A stretch of 32,234 bases of DNA from Candidatus Saccharimonadota bacterium (lineage in GTDB: Bacteria > Patescibacteriota > Saccharimonadia > Saccharimonadales > Saccharimonadaceae): NCBI GenBank assembly GCA_017511965.1, contig JAFWHT010000006.1:1-32234 (forward strand), read 5' to 3'. The notes beneath the pieces were generated by a model. It was not told where the DNA came from. It saw only the letters and a program-made list of their open reading frames with translations, and did no database searches. The position numbers and the translations under genes were made by a program. This document shows, piece after piece, positions 2,298 through 32,234 of the stretch; positions within the stretch are counted from its first letter, which is position 1; every line of letters begins with the position of its first letter.

Positions 2298-4265
2298 ATG
2301 CCTAAGTTTAAATTAGTTTCTAAACTAAAGCCGACTGGAGACCAACCAAAAGCGATTAAACAGCTTACGGATGGTATTTTGAAGGGCGTTCACGAACAAA
2401 CTTTGCTCGGTGTAACTGGATCGGGTAAAACTTTTACGATGGCAAATGTTATCCAAAACGTTCAGAAGCCAACCTTGATTCTCGCACATAATAAAACTCT
2501 TGCGGCGCAGTTGTATTCTGAGATGCGAGAATTTTTTCCGGAAAATGAAGTGCATTATTTTGTTTCGTATTTTGATTATTATCAGCCGGAAGCATATATT
2601 GCATCAACCGATACGTATATCGAAAAAGATTCGGCAATTAATGAAGAGATTGATAGGTTGCGACATGCGGCGACGGAAGCGTTGCTTTCGCGACGAGATT
2701 GTGTAGTTATTGCATCGGTTTCGTGTATTTATGGTATTGGCTCGCCAGAACATTATTTAGAGATGTCCTTTGAGGTTTCAAAAAATGAAAATTTATCACA
2801 GATGGATTTTATCAGAAAATTAGTTAATATCCAATATCACAGGAATGATCTCGCGTTCGAGCGAGGGAATTTTCGGGTGATGGGGGATACGATTGATTTA
2901 TATCCGGCAAATGGAGAATACGCATATCGGTTTGAGTTTGGGTTTGATACTTTGGAGGATATAAAAATTGTTGATCCTTTAACGTTTGAGACGCGCGAAA
3001 AACCAGAGCATGTTCATATTTTCCCGAATACACATTACGCAACGCCGATGGATCAGCTCGAAAAAGCGCTGGTGACGATTCGGGCAGAGTTTGAGGATAG
3101 ATTGGCGTATTTTGAGAAGCATCAAAAATACTTGGAAGCGCAGAGATTATCGCAACGGACAAAATATGATTTAGAGATGCTAAAGGAAACCGGATTTGTA
3201 AAGGGGATTGAAAATTATTCGAGACATTTAGACGGACGGGCGCCCGGCGAGCCGCCGTCGACGCTTTTAGACTTTTTCCCGGATGACTTTTTGTTAATTG
3301 TTGATGAATCGCATATGACTTTGCCACAAGTGCGCGGGATGTACAATGGCGACCACGCACGGAAGGAAACATTAGTTGAGTTTGGGTTTAGATTGCCGAG
3401 CGCGCTTGATAATCGGCCTTTGACTTATGGTGAATTTCAGAAACATATCAACCAAGCGATTTATGTTTCGGCGACACCTGGAGAGTATGAACTTGAAGTT
3501 TCGCCAGAACCAGCCGAACAGGTGATTCGGCCGACGGGGCTCTTAGATCCGGAAATTGAAGTTAGGGGTTCGGAAGGCCAGATTGACGATTTGATGGAAG
3601 AGATTGACCGAAGAATTGCTAAGGGACAGCGAACTTTAATTACGACTTTAACAAAACGAATGGCGGAAGATTTGTCGGACCATTTAAAAACGCGTGGGGT
3701 AAAAACCGCCTATATACATTCCGATATTGATACGCTAGAACGAGGCGATATTTTAAGGGATTTGCGCGAGGGGGTTTACGATGTTTTAGTCGGGATTAAT
3801 TTACTTCGGGAGGGTTTAGATTTACCAGAAGTTTCACTCGTTGCGATTTTGGATGCGGATAAAGAAGGGTTTTTACGTAGCGAATCGGCTTTGATTCAGA
3901 CAATTGGGCGAGCGGCAAGGCATGTAGAAGGGAAGGTGATTATGTATGCAGATTTTATTACCGAGAGCATGGAAAAGGCGATTTCGGAGACAAACCGACG
4001 ACGCGAAATTCAGAAAGAATATAACAAAAAACACGGGATTACGCCAGAGTCGATTAAAAAGGAAGTTTCGAAAGGGCTGCGCGCCATTATTCCGGAAAAG
4101 GAAAAAGCTGATAAACTTGATATCAAGAAAATTCCGAAAGACGAGTTGCCGGGGCTAGTTAAACAGCTGTCGAGCGAGATGCAACTTGCGGCGGCGAATT
4201 TGGAATTTGAGCGAGCGGCACTGCTTCGCGATGAGATTGAGAAAATTAAAGAGTTTATGGCGTAG
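2298..4265 (+). CDS. uvrB: Excinuclease ABC subunit UvrB
   Basis: 655 aa, normal length. UvrB is the damage-verifying helicase-like subunit of nucleotide excision repair. Visible features are the Walker A GVTGSGKT (38-45), the beta-hairpin region [20 protein letters not shown], the DEAD-like [20 protein letters not shown], helicase motifs [21 protein letters not shown] (with V for I) and QTIGRAARH, and a C-terminal UVR motif ([19 protein letters not shown]) that binds UvrA or UvrC. No uvrA or uvrC is in the window. The last 11 bp overlap tail-to-tail with the ORF6N gene on the other strand, and no terminator is visible between them. Confidence 0.98.
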
Positions 4266-5166
4266 TGACAGTTTTTAACATTTGATTTAGATAATTTTTG
4301 TCATTAATTTCATGAATCGCAAAACACTTTTTGCCTAAGTCTTTGAAGCTAGCGCCAGAATGATATAAGGTTTTTTGATCGATGATAATAAACCTGTCGT
4401 GAAAGGAATTATTGTGTATAAATTCGATATTTCTATATTGGCTTTCGTATTTTTTCTTTAATGTAGAATTTATGTTTTTAGAAACGATAATGATTTTTTG
4501 GCTAATATCTTTTAATATATCTAACAATTCTTTTCCGATATAATTATCTATTATAATAATTTCTTGCTTGGCAGAACTAAAAATATCAAGCAAAAGTGAA
4601 TGGGAATCGTATAGTTCGCCGGCGAAGAAAATTTTATCAACTGGCTTTTCGCTAAAACTATCTAGAGCGGCTTCTATTTTTAATAGTCTATTCTCATGAT
4701 TAATCAAAATTTCATTATTTTCCACGGTATTAGCAAAATATCTTCGCATCTCGACAAAGGCATTAATAATCCGGATATTAACCCTAACCGCAATATCGCT
4801 TTTTAATAAACCTGATAACATCATAATTCCTTGTTCGGTTAGAGCATAGGGTAGATATTTCGAATATCGTCCTCGCCCACCACTTACGTCTAAGGTCGCA
4901 AATTGCGACCTTAGACGTATGACATCAAATTCGTCTTCTGTCAACTTAAAGCAAAATAACTCTGGAAATCTTTTGATATTTCTTTTTATAACTTCATTCA
5001 CTCTTTTTGTTTCGACCTGATATAATTTTGCTACATCTGCATCAAGCATCACTTGTCGTCCGCGAATCTCGTAAATTAATGATTTAGCGTCTAAGATCAA
5101 TGTCCTCGACCTTAGAGAATTATTTTCGCTTGTATCTTGCAAGCGCAAAATAGAACTGTTTTCCAT
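4255..5166 (-). CDS. ORF6N (KilA-N-like) DNA-binding protein with PLD-like C-terminal domain
   Basis: 303 aa. Residues about 25-145 form an ORF6N domain ([25 protein letters not shown]-like [30 protein letters not shown]), a putative DNA-binding module common in phages and mobile regions. The C-terminal half (about 195-300) resembles a degenerate phospholipase D fold: HDRFIIID, then [10 protein letters not shown] in place of the HxK-x4-D/GSxN signature, with Arg replacing the usual Lys. The function is unknown, and phage control or defence roles are only guesses. ATG at 5166 has a TAGGAG Shine-Dalgarno site. A perfect 16-bp inverted repeat lies inside the coding sequence. The 3' end overlaps uvrB by 11 bp. 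Confidence 0.85.
4885..4919. repeat. Perfect 16-bp inverted repeat inside the ORF6N gene
   Basis: Arms 4885-4900 and 4904-4919 match perfectly around a 3-nt AAT spacer, centred on AGGTCGCA/TGCGACCT. On the coding (minus) strand the palindrome spells the [11 protein letters not shown] region, which is conserved in ORF6N proteins. It could be a protein-coding constraint, a binding site for the protein itself, or an mRNA hairpin. Confidence 0.95.
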
Positions 5167-5294: not shown

Positions 5295-7189
5295 TTAGCG
5301 GGCGAGGCAACGGAGGGAAAAACCGTAGCCACGATAGTACTCGTACTCGGGATAGATTGCTTCAGAATAGAATCGTGGGTTACGTGCAAGCGTAGCACTA
5401 GAGACTGTAGAGGACCAATAATACTCGCTGTCACCAGCGCCGAAAAGCATGTTCGCGTAAACGTAACCGTGGCGGATTATGTAGAGTGGGGCTTTTTCTA
5501 GACCTTCGGAAGAAATGTAAGCGTTCCCAATATAGTTGGCATAGAGATAAGCGAGTCTTGCAAAGTCATTAGGAGAGCCATTTGTTTCGTAGGTTGGGGT
5601 TTGCCCAGAAACAGTTGGCAATCTCCAACCTCTAGGGCAAATTGAATTTTTAGGGTTGTTAGCTATATTATTGTAAGTATCAGTCGTAATGCTACTTGTA
5701 TCGTTTGTAGCGATTGCAGCAGACCAGTTGTAGTAGTTACCTACATGGCCATGAGCGCCGTTGCTTGCATATGGTGTAGTAGAGAAATAATTTTTCCAGT
5801 TAGCATCTGCCTTGGTAACATAGTTACAACCTTGATATTGTACCCCGCCTACAGTGTAAGAACAGTTGGCTGATGGGTAGAATGTTGCGTTGTTCCAGTA
5901 ATAGTCTCCTGTATCTACGGAATATGGGGTATTATAGTCATTCGCCCAACCCGTAATACTCCCCGAAGTTGAAGCATTTGTTACTGCGTTGATTGTGCTT
6001 CGAGCCGGAGTCCAGCTTGTTACGGTGTTAAGGTCGGTATCTTGATTAGTAAGAGCTGTGGAAGTGGAGAGGTTCAAGTCTAAGTTTTGCGTCATCCAAC
6101 AATGGCCATCTTGCAACTTGGTTGCCCAATAGATTTTGTTATCGCGAACATCAATCAGCTGAGTCTGGCCGGGCTCATCTAAGACAGTTACTCTACCACA
6201 AATAGTGTTATCCATGTCTTGCATTTTATAGTAGCTATTGCTACCGACTGTAATCTTTTGCTTACCAGCTTCGGCGTAGGACTGAGCTATATTCATATCC
6301 CATTTGGCGTAGAGTACGATGGTTTGTTCAGTGCCAGTTAGGTTGGTAACTTCTGCTTCATTTGCATAGCTAGTGCCAGTCCCGTCGGCATTAGTAGTCC
6401 AGCCTGCAAAAGTATAATTAGTTCTTGTAAAGGTATTTGGGTTTAAGTTAGTCGGCACATCTTCTGGAATGATTTGGGTGTAGGTGGTTTCACTATTAGC
6501 CGTTACCCCGCCATTACCATTAAACTCTACCGTATATTGTTGGCAGGAGATAGGAACGGTGAGTTGGTAGACGATTACGCCAGGATTATTATTAGTGTCT
6601 TTAGCCATAGTGTATTGACCTGGCTCTAGGGTGTTTGGTACCGATACACCAAAGTAGACGGGGAATTGATCGCCACCAGAAGCGCTCGCGACATTACTTT
6701 GTTTGATAATGGTTGGAGTATTAGTAAGTCCGGTAAAAGAACCAGTAACAGTAGAACCGGTCATACTATAGCCCCAGGTACCTAAGAAGCTTCCGCCACT
6801 ACCATCCTCGCCTATGATGGGTAGGGGATTAGCTAAAGTACCTTTGCTTGGGCTAATTCTACTGTTACTAGTACTGTCACCGTCTTTATATAAAGTGGCA
6901 TCACTAATTGAACTTAAAATTGATACAGTATAGCCAGAAGAACAAGTGGTATTAACAGTTAAAGTATCAGTACCAATACTAGCAGAATTACCCGAAGCAG
7001 AGACATCAATAGAAACTGTACCAGAAGTAGAGATAGAAGCTGTAGCGGCAGAGGCAGAGTCTACCCTATATATATATATATATGAGATACTAAAATTAAG
7101 GCGAGAATAGAAAGAATTCTAGAAAGAGATTTAGAAAGAGAAAAATTAGAAAATGCAGATTTAAAAAATGAGTTATTTCTATTAAACAT
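5295..7189 (-). CDS. InlB-repeat/FISUMP surface protein, phase-variable by (TA)n, out of frame as sequenced
   Basis: The long in-frame body runs from 6764 down to 5295, and the same frame stays open up to about 7118 but has no start codon there. A signal peptide begins at ATG 7189 in another frame (MFNRNNSFFKSAFSNF..., hydrophobic core ILSILALILVS). It runs into the (TA) tract at 7067-7083 and stops just after. Losing one TA (or gaining two) joins the frames into about 630 aa with a signal-peptidase-like site DSASA/ATAS. The body has an N-terminal beta-rich domain with CSSGYTVSI, a Listeria-Bacteroides (InlB B) repeat (YTVEFNGNGG to YAKWD), and a FISUMP domain (GHCWMTQNLDLNL, CPRGWRLPT, YYWSSTV, GFSLRCLAR). 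It is probably secreted and exposed. No LPXTG motif or C-terminal membrane segment is seen. A sequencing error or a decayed gene is the alternative. Confidence 0.8.
7067..7083. repeat. (TA)8 tract at the signal peptide/body junction
   Basis: A 17-bp uninterrupted TA dinucleotide run lies exactly where the signal-peptide frame meets the body frame of the minus-strand surface protein gene. The unit is not a multiple of three, so slippage changes the frame. At this length the two parts are out of frame. Confidence 0.95.
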
Positions 7190-7195
7190 AATGTT

Positions 7196-7201
7196 TATAT
7201 A
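7196..7201 (-). promoter_or_regulatory. -10 element of the surface protein gene (TATATA)
   Basis: On the minus strand TATATA ends 6 nt before ATG 7189, the same spacing as the other leaderless genes. No Shine-Dalgarno sequence precedes this ATG. This supports 7189 as the real start of the phase-variable gene. Confidence 0.45.
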
Positions 7202-7314
7202 TGACCTTGTGATTTTAATGTTAATACTGGTGTTTTGTTTTTGTATAACTCTAAACTCTACTCAGAGTATAATGCTTGCGTTAAATAAAGTCAAGAGTTT
7301 TTTTGAAAATGTAG

Positions 7315-7326: not shown

Positions 7327-8229
7327 ATGAGCGCGGTGGGAATTTTTGAAATAGAGAAAATTAAGCGACGGATACGAGCGTGTGATTATTTGGTGGTGGC
7401 GCAACTTTTTTTGCAAGATAATTTTTTGTTAAAGCGACCTTTGGAATTTTCGGATATTAAGCCAAGGCTCTTAGGGCACTGGGGAACTTGCCATGGGATT
7501 AACGTTGTTTATGCGAATTTAAAAGCAAGATATGGCGAGGATTCGAATTTTAGTTTTATTCTCGGGCCTGGGCATGGGTTTCCGGCCCTTAACGCAAATT
7601 TGTTTTTAGACGGGGAGTTGGAGGAAAAGGATATTGAGCGACTATGCCGAAATTTTAGCTGGCCGGATGGGTTTCCGAGCCACGCTAGCCCGCTGACACC
7701 TGGCGTAATCACAGAAGGCGGAGAGCTGGGCTATGCGCTAGCGAACGCTTATGGGCTAGTACTCGGGCATCCAGAAAAAACGGTTGCGGTGCTGATTGGC
7801 GATGGAGAACTTGAGACGGCAACAGCAATTGATTCACTGAATTTAAGGAATCTTCTTGATGGAGAAAAAAATGGGAAAGTTTTACCGATACTACATCTAA
7901 ACGGCTATAAAATTTCGGGGCCGACAATTTATGCGCGAAAATCTGAAAGAGAATTAAATGAGCTGATAAGAGGATTTGGGTTTGAGCCGATTTGGATTGA
8001 CGGAGAAAATACAGATGAGTTTCAGGAAGCATTGCGAACAGAAACGGAAGCGCCGTTTTATATTTTTAGAAACGAAAAGGGTTACGGTGGACCGAATCGG
8101 CATCATGAGGCGCATCAGATACCATTAAAAAATCCAGCGAGTGATAAAAAAGAGTTGGATGATTTAGAAAAATGGTTGCGACGGTATAATTTTGATGAAT
8201 TGTTTGACGGGAAAGGATTTAGAATATGA
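7327..8229 (+). CDS. Phosphoketolase, N-terminal (TPP pyrophosphate-binding) subunit
   Basis: 300 aa, matching the first domain of xylulose-5-phosphate/fructose-6-phosphate phosphoketolase. That enzyme splits Xu5P or F6P with phosphate into acetyl-phosphate and G3P or E4P. Active-site segments are present: LLGHWGT (48-54), GPGHG (80-84), PSHASP (117-122), EGGELGY (130-136), GDGELETA (158-165), HLNGYKI (190-196) and HHEAHQIPL (259-267). The chain ends right after KWLRRYNFDELFD, where a normal single-chain enzyme of about 800 aa enters its interdomain linker. The stop overlaps the start of the next gene (ATGA, 8226-8229), so the two halves are probably made together and assemble. The best reading is a genuinely split enzyme, not a frameshift. 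Confidence 0.88.
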   Translation: MSAVGIFEIEKIKRRIRACDYLVVAQLFLQDNFLLKRPLEFSDIKPRLLGHWGTCHGINVVYANLKARYGEDSNFSFILGPGHGFPALNANLFLDGELEEKDIERLCRNFSWPDGFPSHASPLTPGVITEGGELGYALANAYGLVLGHPEKTVAVLIGDGELETATAIDSLNLRNLLDGEKNGKVLPILHLNGYKISGPTIYARKSERELNELIRGFGFEPIWIDGENTDEFQEALRTETEAPFYIFRNEKGYGGPNRHHEAHQIPLKNPASDKKELDDLEKWLRRYNFDELFDGKGFRI

Positions 8230-9368
8230 ATGAACTATTTTCACCAGCCAAGCGAATAGGGGAACTACTGGCAAGAGAATTTGAAAAAGATGAGAGATTT
8301 TACTTTTTTTCACCAGATGAGACGACTTCAAATAAATTTGACAAGATTTTTGAAGTAGAGAAACGGGCATGGGGAATGCCGACGAAAACTTGGGATTTGC
8401 CGGAAGGTCCGGATGGGCGAATTGTCGAGATGCTGTCGGAGAACGTATTGTTTTCGGTAATGAGTGGGCACTTGATGAATGGCGAGAAGGCGATGATGGG
8501 AAGTTATGAAGCGTTTTTCCCGATTATTACGGCGCAGATTTTGCAACAAATGAAGTTTATTAAGCAGTCAAAAGAAGTTTCGTGGCGCAAACCAATTCCG
8601 GCGGTAAATTTGCTTTCGACGAGTGTTTGCTGGCGCCAAGATCATAATGGTTTTACGCATCAATCGCCGGCTCTGATTTCGACTCTGCTTAGTGTGCCGT
8701 CTGGGCTAGCGAACTGCTTGTTCCCAATAGATGACATATCGGCAGAGGTGGCGTATGATTTTATGATTGATGCAACGAATGTTGTAAATCTTACAACATT
8801 TGATAAAAACGAACGGCCGAGATATTTGGACTTAACACGGGCAAAAGCACAATTAGAAAATAGTGGCGCGATGGTGTTTGAAGAGTTTTCGGACGAAGAG
8901 CCAGATTTTATTTTGACAGCGGCAGGGGATATTGTAGCGCATGAAGCAATAGAGGCAATAAAAATTTTAAAGGCAGATGCGCCTGATATTAAAATGCGAT
9001 TTGTAGGACTTAGTGCGCTAACTTATAAAGCGATTGGAACGGTTGACAATAAATTGTCACAAGAAAAATTTGATGAGATGTTTACTAATGATAAGCCTAT
9101 TTTGGCTAATTTTCATGGGTTTCCGGAGACTTTGGAGGGGATTTTGGCAAATTATGCATCTAATAATCGACTGAAGGTGCATGGATTTATTGAAGAAGGC
9201 TCGACCACAACACCGTTTGAAATGCTACGACGAAACAAAGCATCGCGCTATGATTTAGCGATAGATGTAGCAAGAGTTATGGGGCGGGAAGATTTGATTT
9301 TGAAATACGAAGCAATTTTGGCGCAGAACCATTTTCGTGCTATAAATTATGGCACGGATTTGATATAA
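8226..9368 (+). CDS. Phosphoketolase, C-terminal (PYR plus C-domain) subunit
   Basis: 380 aa, matching the second half of phosphoketolase. FFSPDETTSN (27-36) holds the catalytic Glu of the PYR domain, WRQDHNGFTHQ (136-146) carries the conserved active-site His, and GFIEEGSTTTPFEMLRRN is the typical C-terminal segment. It lacks the roughly 60-residue linker found in single-chain enzymes and starts almost directly at the PYR domain. It overlaps the N-terminal subunit gene by 4 bp. With both subunits the TPP site would form at the interface, as in split transketolases. The product acetyl-phosphate can give ATP through acetate kinase, which is not in this window. Its TAA stop lies inside the TATAAT of the next gene. 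Confidence 0.88.
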   Translation: MNELFSPAKRIGELLAREFEKDERFYFFSPDETTSNKFDKIFEVEKRAWGMPTKTWDLPEGPDGRIVEMLSENVLFSVMSGHLMNGEKAMMGSYEAFFPIITAQILQQMKFIKQSKEVSWRKPIPAVNLLSTSVCWRQDHNGFTHQSPALISTLLSVPSGLANCLFPIDDISAEVAYDFMIDATNVVNLTTFDKNERPRYLDLTRAKAQLENSGAMVFEEFSDEEPDFILTAAGDIVAHEAIEAIKILKADAPDIKMRFVGLSALTYKAIGTVDNKLSQEKFDEMFTNDKPILANFHGFPETLEGILANYASNNRLKVHGFIEEGSTTTPFEMLRRNKASRYDLAIDVARVMGREDLILKYEAILAQNHFRAINYGTDLI

Positions 9369-31884: not shown

Positions 31885-32234
31885 AAATCTCCAGATATAT
31901 ATATATATATATATTAGTGGCTTTGCTTGGCTCGGCTCTTCTTACTTCCAATAAAGTCTTCGCTGAATCATCTCCAGCTTCCGTAGTAATCCCAGCCAGC
32001 TATTGTAATGTATCTACTGGCTCTAGTACTAGCTCTGGCTCTAGTAACACCACAGACACTCCTCACGTAGCCACCATTAACAATGGGACTTACAAAGAAG
32101 ACATTGGTATTACTACCTTCAAAGTAGTCTGTGGAGATAATGGTGGTTATAGTATCTATGCTATAGGCTATAGTAATAATGAATATGGTAACAATAAGCT
32201 ACTAGCCACCGTAGGTAATACTCTCTCCCCCTCC
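31881..32234 (+). CDS. Secreted surface protein with (AT)10 in its signal peptide, in frame, 5' part only
   Basis: Open from ATG 31881 to the window end (118 codons, no stop). It has a signal peptide MKISRYIYIYILVALLGSAL followed by LTSNKVFA/ESSPAS, with a good signal-peptidase I site after VFA. The hydrophobic core is partly encoded by the (AT)10 repeat (YIYIYI). The mature start is Ser/Thr-rich with a Cys (SYCNVSTGSSTSS), then DIGITTFKVVCGDNGGYSIYAIGYSNN. This resembles the IGTDTLTVNTTCSSGYTVSI stretch of the surface protein at 5295-7189, so the two are probably paralogs. Here signal and body are in one frame (phase ON). It overlaps the HdeD-like gene by 4 bp. The rest, possibly with InlB or FISUMP domains, lies outside the window. 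Confidence 0.85.
   Translation, partial: MKISRYIYIYILVALLGSALLTSNKVFAESSPASVVIPASYCNVSTGSSTSSGSSNTTDTPHVATINNGTYKEDIGITTFKVVCGDNGGYSIYAIGYSNNEYGNNKLLATVGNTLSPS
31895..31914. repeat. (AT)10 tract inside a signal peptide
   Basis: A 20-bp uninterrupted AT dinucleotide run occupies codons 5-12 of the second surface protein. A change of one or two units would shift the frame and stop translation soon after, so the tract can act as an on/off switch. Confidence 0.95.

Follow-up and report, generated by a model that had tools for sequence, protein, structure and literature searches.

In Neisseria, the opa genes carry a (CTCTT)n repeat inside the signal peptide-coding region. The mechanism nearest to that proposed below is the (CT)n system of the Helicobacter pylori adhesins, among which sabA combines the dinucleotide tract in its coding region with a promoter homopolymer tract (PMC3960876). 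Among CPR bacteria, the nearest case is a Gracilibacterium gene with hypervariable PTD repeats (PMC6851277). The literature searched contained no account of phase variation driven by repeats in either Saccharibacteria or Patescibacteria. Little is understood of how CPR bacteria and Saccharibacteria bind, change, or re-infect the bacteria that host them.

The locus described here lies in a window of 32,234 nucleotides, which is the entire contig C23 of a genome of 695,404 bases in 39 contigs. Within it, a (TA)8 tract appears to be a slipped-strand phase-variation switch joining a signal peptide to a FISUMP surface protein; this reading is given a probability of roughly 0.88, and switching in the population is inferred from sequence. 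As in H. pylori sabA, babA/babB, oipA (hopH), and hopZ, the frame depends on a dinucleotide tract near the 5′ end of the coding region, with slipped-strand mispairing as the putative cause, and the switches are spread over a paralogous family of surface proteins. Unlike the H. pylori system, the units are TA rather than CT and read Ile-Tyr in every frame, the bacterium is a probable CPR member rather than a campylobacterote, the proteins are unrelated (FISUMP/List_Bact_rpt), and most copies of one group (group A, below) have promoters that appear leaderless. With Neisseria opa the locus shares a repeat within the signal peptide code and dispersed paralogs that would switch independently, but the opa unit is a pentanucleotide and the protein family and phylum are different. 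In the Gracilibacterium PTD-repeat gene, too, repeats drive variation in what is probably a surface protein of a CPR bacterium; these repeats, however, are in-frame 9-mers with mostly synonymous variation, without an ON/OFF switch and without a family.

On the minus strand, the ATG at 7189 opens a frame (7061 to 7189) that translates to MFNRNNSFFKSAFSNFSLSKSLSRILSILALILVSHIYIYIG (42 aa), enters the (TA)8 tract (7067 to 7082) on the 3′ side of the hydrophobic core, and terminates at TAG (7063-7061), which is the OFF state as assembled. The surface-protein body (5295 to 7064, minus strand; 589 aa and a stop) occupies a frame not matched by that start codon. It begins with V (GTA, 7064-7062), reads VDSASAATASIS..., stays open for 589 codons to 5298, and stops at 5297-5295; the earliest ATG, GTG, or TTG in this frame is the ATG at 6764. 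Two domains were identified in the body, a List_Bact_rpt/Flg_new (Listeria-Bacteroides repeat) domain at residues 177 to 254 (E value, 8e-10; 39 bits, above the cut-off of 27) and FISUMP TIGR02145 (Fib_succ_major) at residues 427 to 587 (E value, 5e-12; 46.8 bits, above the curated cut-off of 41.65). A structure prediction for the body, made with 18 sequences, reached a pLDDT of 35 and was not used.

With 7, 10, and so on units, leader and body fall into one full-length frame (630 and 632 aa), while all other numbers give products of no more than 44 aa. In the fused N terminus, a basic start is followed by a hydrophobic core and then by an ASA-type end (RVDSASA/ATAS), which makes it signal peptide-like as judged by eye, without a predictor. 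Thus the sequence-only reading of this DNA was borne out where it had the signal peptide run from ATG 7189 into (TA)8 and stop, found no body start codon upstream of 6764, and expected the removal of one TA or the addition of two to fuse both parts with a sensible cleavage site. It had placed the tract at 7067-7083, where 7082-7067 is the (TA)8 itself but 7083 is a single additional A preceding it, and had described a 560-codon InlB/FISUMP body in another frame; the open frame and the FISUMP domain hold, but the length was slightly low. The locus shows a structural hallmark of slipped-strand contingency loci, namely, a simple repeat in the 5′ coding region, with a unit that is not a multiple of 3 and a frame set by unit number.

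A σ70-like promoter (TTGACT-17-TATACT; 10/12 matches) was identified at 7266 to 7294 on the minus strand. Promoter-like sites are no commoner in this region than expected by chance; the 7294-7266 site is correctly placed upstream of a conserved 5′ untranslated region (UTR) (7190 to 7262, minus strand). Sequence comparison revealed in this UTR, ahead of the ATG, a shared element (AGAGTTATACAAAAACAAAAC...AAGGTCATA) that also precedes sibling genes of the same genome and has exact or near copies in congeners G123 and G103. The AGAGTTATACAAAAACAAAAC element was found ahead of group B (below) and related FISUMP-type genes (stretches L134, L132, L141, L052, and L053), and could possibly be a regulatory RNA or a translation signal.

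Comparison with homologs identified the leader and body as two halves of one gene, since an ortholog without the tract in congener G103 carries both in a single frame (MFSHKHYLRFARFVCTITLLFAISSIANIFNTANTSAATYEASISTSGSVTLDVSPAG...) behind a promoter and 5′ UTR resembling those of the window gene, and in the paralog C7:3982 (75% identical), where the TA stretch is interrupted, they are fused in frame. The G103 copy was also the sole match over most of the length when congeners were searched at the DNA level with the window leader region. The nearest paralog, C28:8032, agrees exactly with window 7067 for 81 nt on the upstream side of the tract and for 46 nt on the downstream side, and the only local difference between these near-identical copies is the number of TA units (9 versus 8). 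Both are OFF as assembled, with bodies that lack stops and a dN/dS of 0.14; OFF pairs without internal stops elsewhere gave values of 0.23 (two G156 copies) and 0.26 (two G117 copies). By this measure (dN/dS, 0.14 to 0.26) the OFF bodies are under purifying selection, which together with the absence of stops indicates that they have not long been permanently off. Unit numbers also differ between orthologs: G048 and G061 share a leader followed by 8 and 9 units, respectively, and G089 is ON with 11 units while its relative G134, with a body 57% identical, is OFF with 8.

Thirteen (TA)≥7 tracts were identified across the 695-kb genome, and every one (13/13) lies within the first codons or at the signal peptide end of a secreted-protein-type open reading frame (ORF). 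Dinucleotide-preserving shuffling of the window, repeated 100 times, yielded no (TA)7 match. Frame could be scored for 11 of the 13 tracts, with 3 ON (C1, window 31895, and C35) and 8 OFF; the remaining two, on C22 and C34, are cut by contig ends and retain the leader side only. The tracts of group A (window 31895, C1, C4, C5, C24, C27, C28:17859, and C35 are examples) are located 5 to 10 codons past the ATG and ahead of the hydrophobic core, whereas in group B (window 7067, C16, and C28:8032) the tract is 3′ of the core. The group A copy in the window starts at ATG 31881 on the plus strand and is cut by the contig end (31881 to 32234); its (AT)10 tract (31895 to 31914, plus strand), five codons past the start, leaves this second surface-protein gene in frame and ON. 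Most group A copies have an extended −10 box ending 6 to 7 nt upstream of the ATG, which suggests that their mRNAs are leaderless. Contig ends fall within or near TA tracts on C1, C4, C5, C16, C22, C24, C28, C34, and C35.

The layout recurs in 11 congeners and in one species (G376) of another family of the same order. The pattern TATAAT-N3..12-ATG-N9..39-(TA)7 was present in 6 of 174 genomes of the genus, the present one included, and a reversed-pattern control gave none. A census of (TA)8 found at least one tract in 18/174 genomes of the genus; tracts in surface-protein signal peptides were identified in G010, G036, G048, G057, G061, G079, G089, G117 (three copies), G134, and G156 (two copies), and several of the switched bodies in relatives are again FISUMP proteins. 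Some congener tracts are intergenic; those of G022, G013, G056, G058, G078, G080, G087, G115, and G136 are intergenic, unclear, or contig terminal. In G162 (C1:67460, L086), an in-frame TA tract lies in the first codons/first membrane segment of a family 2 glycosyltransferase, and through this membrane protein surface sugars may also come under phase variation. Altogether, 7 loci were ON and 20 OFF among 27 scored in 13 species, the present one included. A contig search aimed at conspecific genomes or close strains returned only distant FISUMP relatives, and very near records were possibly missed. The closest named FISUMP relative is from a Ca. Saccharibacteria metagenome-assembled genome (MAG) (37% identity), and the genome measures 0.7 Mb; without a marker-gene tree, the CPR episymbiont label given by the sequence-only reading is plausible but not proven.

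Mismatch repair restrains the slippage of short dinucleotide tracts. Neither the present genome nor any of 59 congeners, 60 members of the genus in all, gave a MutS_V match, while 11 of 14 control genomes were positive. As proposed, gain or loss of a TA unit would shift the frame by 2 nt. Of every three successive unit numbers, one would then allow the complete protein to be made and exported (ON), and the others would end in a peptide no longer than 44 residues (OFF). Since (TA)n encodes alternating Ile and Tyr whatever the frame, it introduces no stop itself and is tolerated next to the signal peptide core; the run, being hydrophobic enough in or next to that core, would cost the ON protein little. 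With at least 13 such loci, each presumed to switch independently and at random, many surface combinations would be expected in a clonal population. The sequence-only reading of a phase-variable surface protein captured OFF is supported by the fused homologs, the purifying selection, the unit difference, and the recurring ON/OFF architecture, and the data support a family of such TA-tract genes in a probable CPR bacterium, although switching itself is an inference. Surface exposure and any benefit, whether in host range, attachment, or the avoidance of phages and host resistance, are likewise inferred, and so is the part in attaching to hosts or escaping phages suggested from the sequence earlier. 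A genome-encoded ON/OFF set of surface proteins is a candidate means of switching host range and of evading phages or host resistance, and automatic annotation would call such genes truncated or start-less ORFs.

The tract could instead be merely the site of a disabling indel in a recent pseudogene. The gene is OFF as assembled, its body lacks a start of its own before 6764, and 20 of the 27 scored loci are OFF; the 7:20 ratio is that expected for randomized frames with one ON frame in three, and taken alone it cannot tell switching from frozen frameshifts. This explanation is nevertheless very unlikely, given two OFF paralogs with 589 stop-free codons at a dN/dS of 0.14, the recurrence of the tract at one position across many independent genes and species, several of them ON, and the concentration of all tracts of this genome at signal peptide ends. 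It is also conceivable that assembly or sequencing went wrong, with true unit numbers that are constant and in frame or with leaders and bodies mis-joined at the tract. Ten of the 13 tracts, including those of most group A copies, lie no more than about 350 bp from a contig end and two contigs start inside a tract, which points to assembler trouble there, yet possible mis-joins of this kind leave window 7067, C28:8032, C27:9521, and most copies in relatives unaffected. Window 7067 is mid-contig with unique flanks on either side, the layout and OFF frames were seen again in separate assemblies of other species, and a single assembly contains two almost identical copies whose unit numbers differ, all of which renders an artefact highly improbable. 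The pseudogene and artefact readings were both rejected on dN/dS, tract-free orthologs, and recurrence in other genomes.

Leader-body combinations do break at the tract in places: C35 has 45 nt upstream in common with C22 and 44 nt downstream in common with C5, the leader of which is different. These swapped pairs among group A copies may stem from recombination or from assembly mis-joins. It could be argued from them that the tract serves mainly as short homology for exchanging leaders and bodies among paralogs, frame changes being a by-product, but the mixed copies are at contig ends, where mis-joins are possible, and each locus retains its own upstream chromosomal context. The one-unit difference between window 7067 and C28:8032 and the single-copy tracts in relatives would also be left unexplained, making this proposal scarcely credible.

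Besides the TA switch, there is a second likely type of switch, formed by poly-G/C tracts that lie either in promoter spacers or at 5′ coding ends; runs of at least 9 were considered in the present genome. Five such runs, spanning 9 to 15, are positioned between −35 and −10 boxes and are likely promoter-strength switches. Those at C2:1260, C15:1684, and C31:5391 precede genes for unknown, apparently non-secreted proteins, while those at C7:20725 and C39:15544 are upstream of two tract-free FISUMP-family genes; the arrangement resembles the promoter homopolymer tract of sabA. At C7:7952 (2153-2164 of C7:5800-9200, L162), a poly-C run is located in the 5′ coding end of a 245- to 248-aa gene of unknown family, which is OFF and has a leaderless promoter. 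The other poly-C copy is split at the run between the end of C8 and the start of C13, apparently two halves of one locus. A Pfam search with the products of the C2, C15, and C7:7952 poly-G/C genes gave no match. A broader proposal, that some 20 independent switches (TA, poly-C, and poly-G/C) operate in 0.7 Mb, favored by loss of mismatch repair, with leaders and bodies also shuffled at the tracts, is regarded as doubtful.

Directly downstream of the phase-variable gene is an ORF6N/Rha-type phage regulator-like gene (4255-5166 of the window, minus strand). The window also encodes a phosphoketolase in two plus-strand ORFs with a 4-nt overlap, one carrying XFP_N (7327-8229) and the next XFP and XFP_C (8226-9368). 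This two-ORF arrangement (7327-9368) could represent either a split enzyme or a frameshift.
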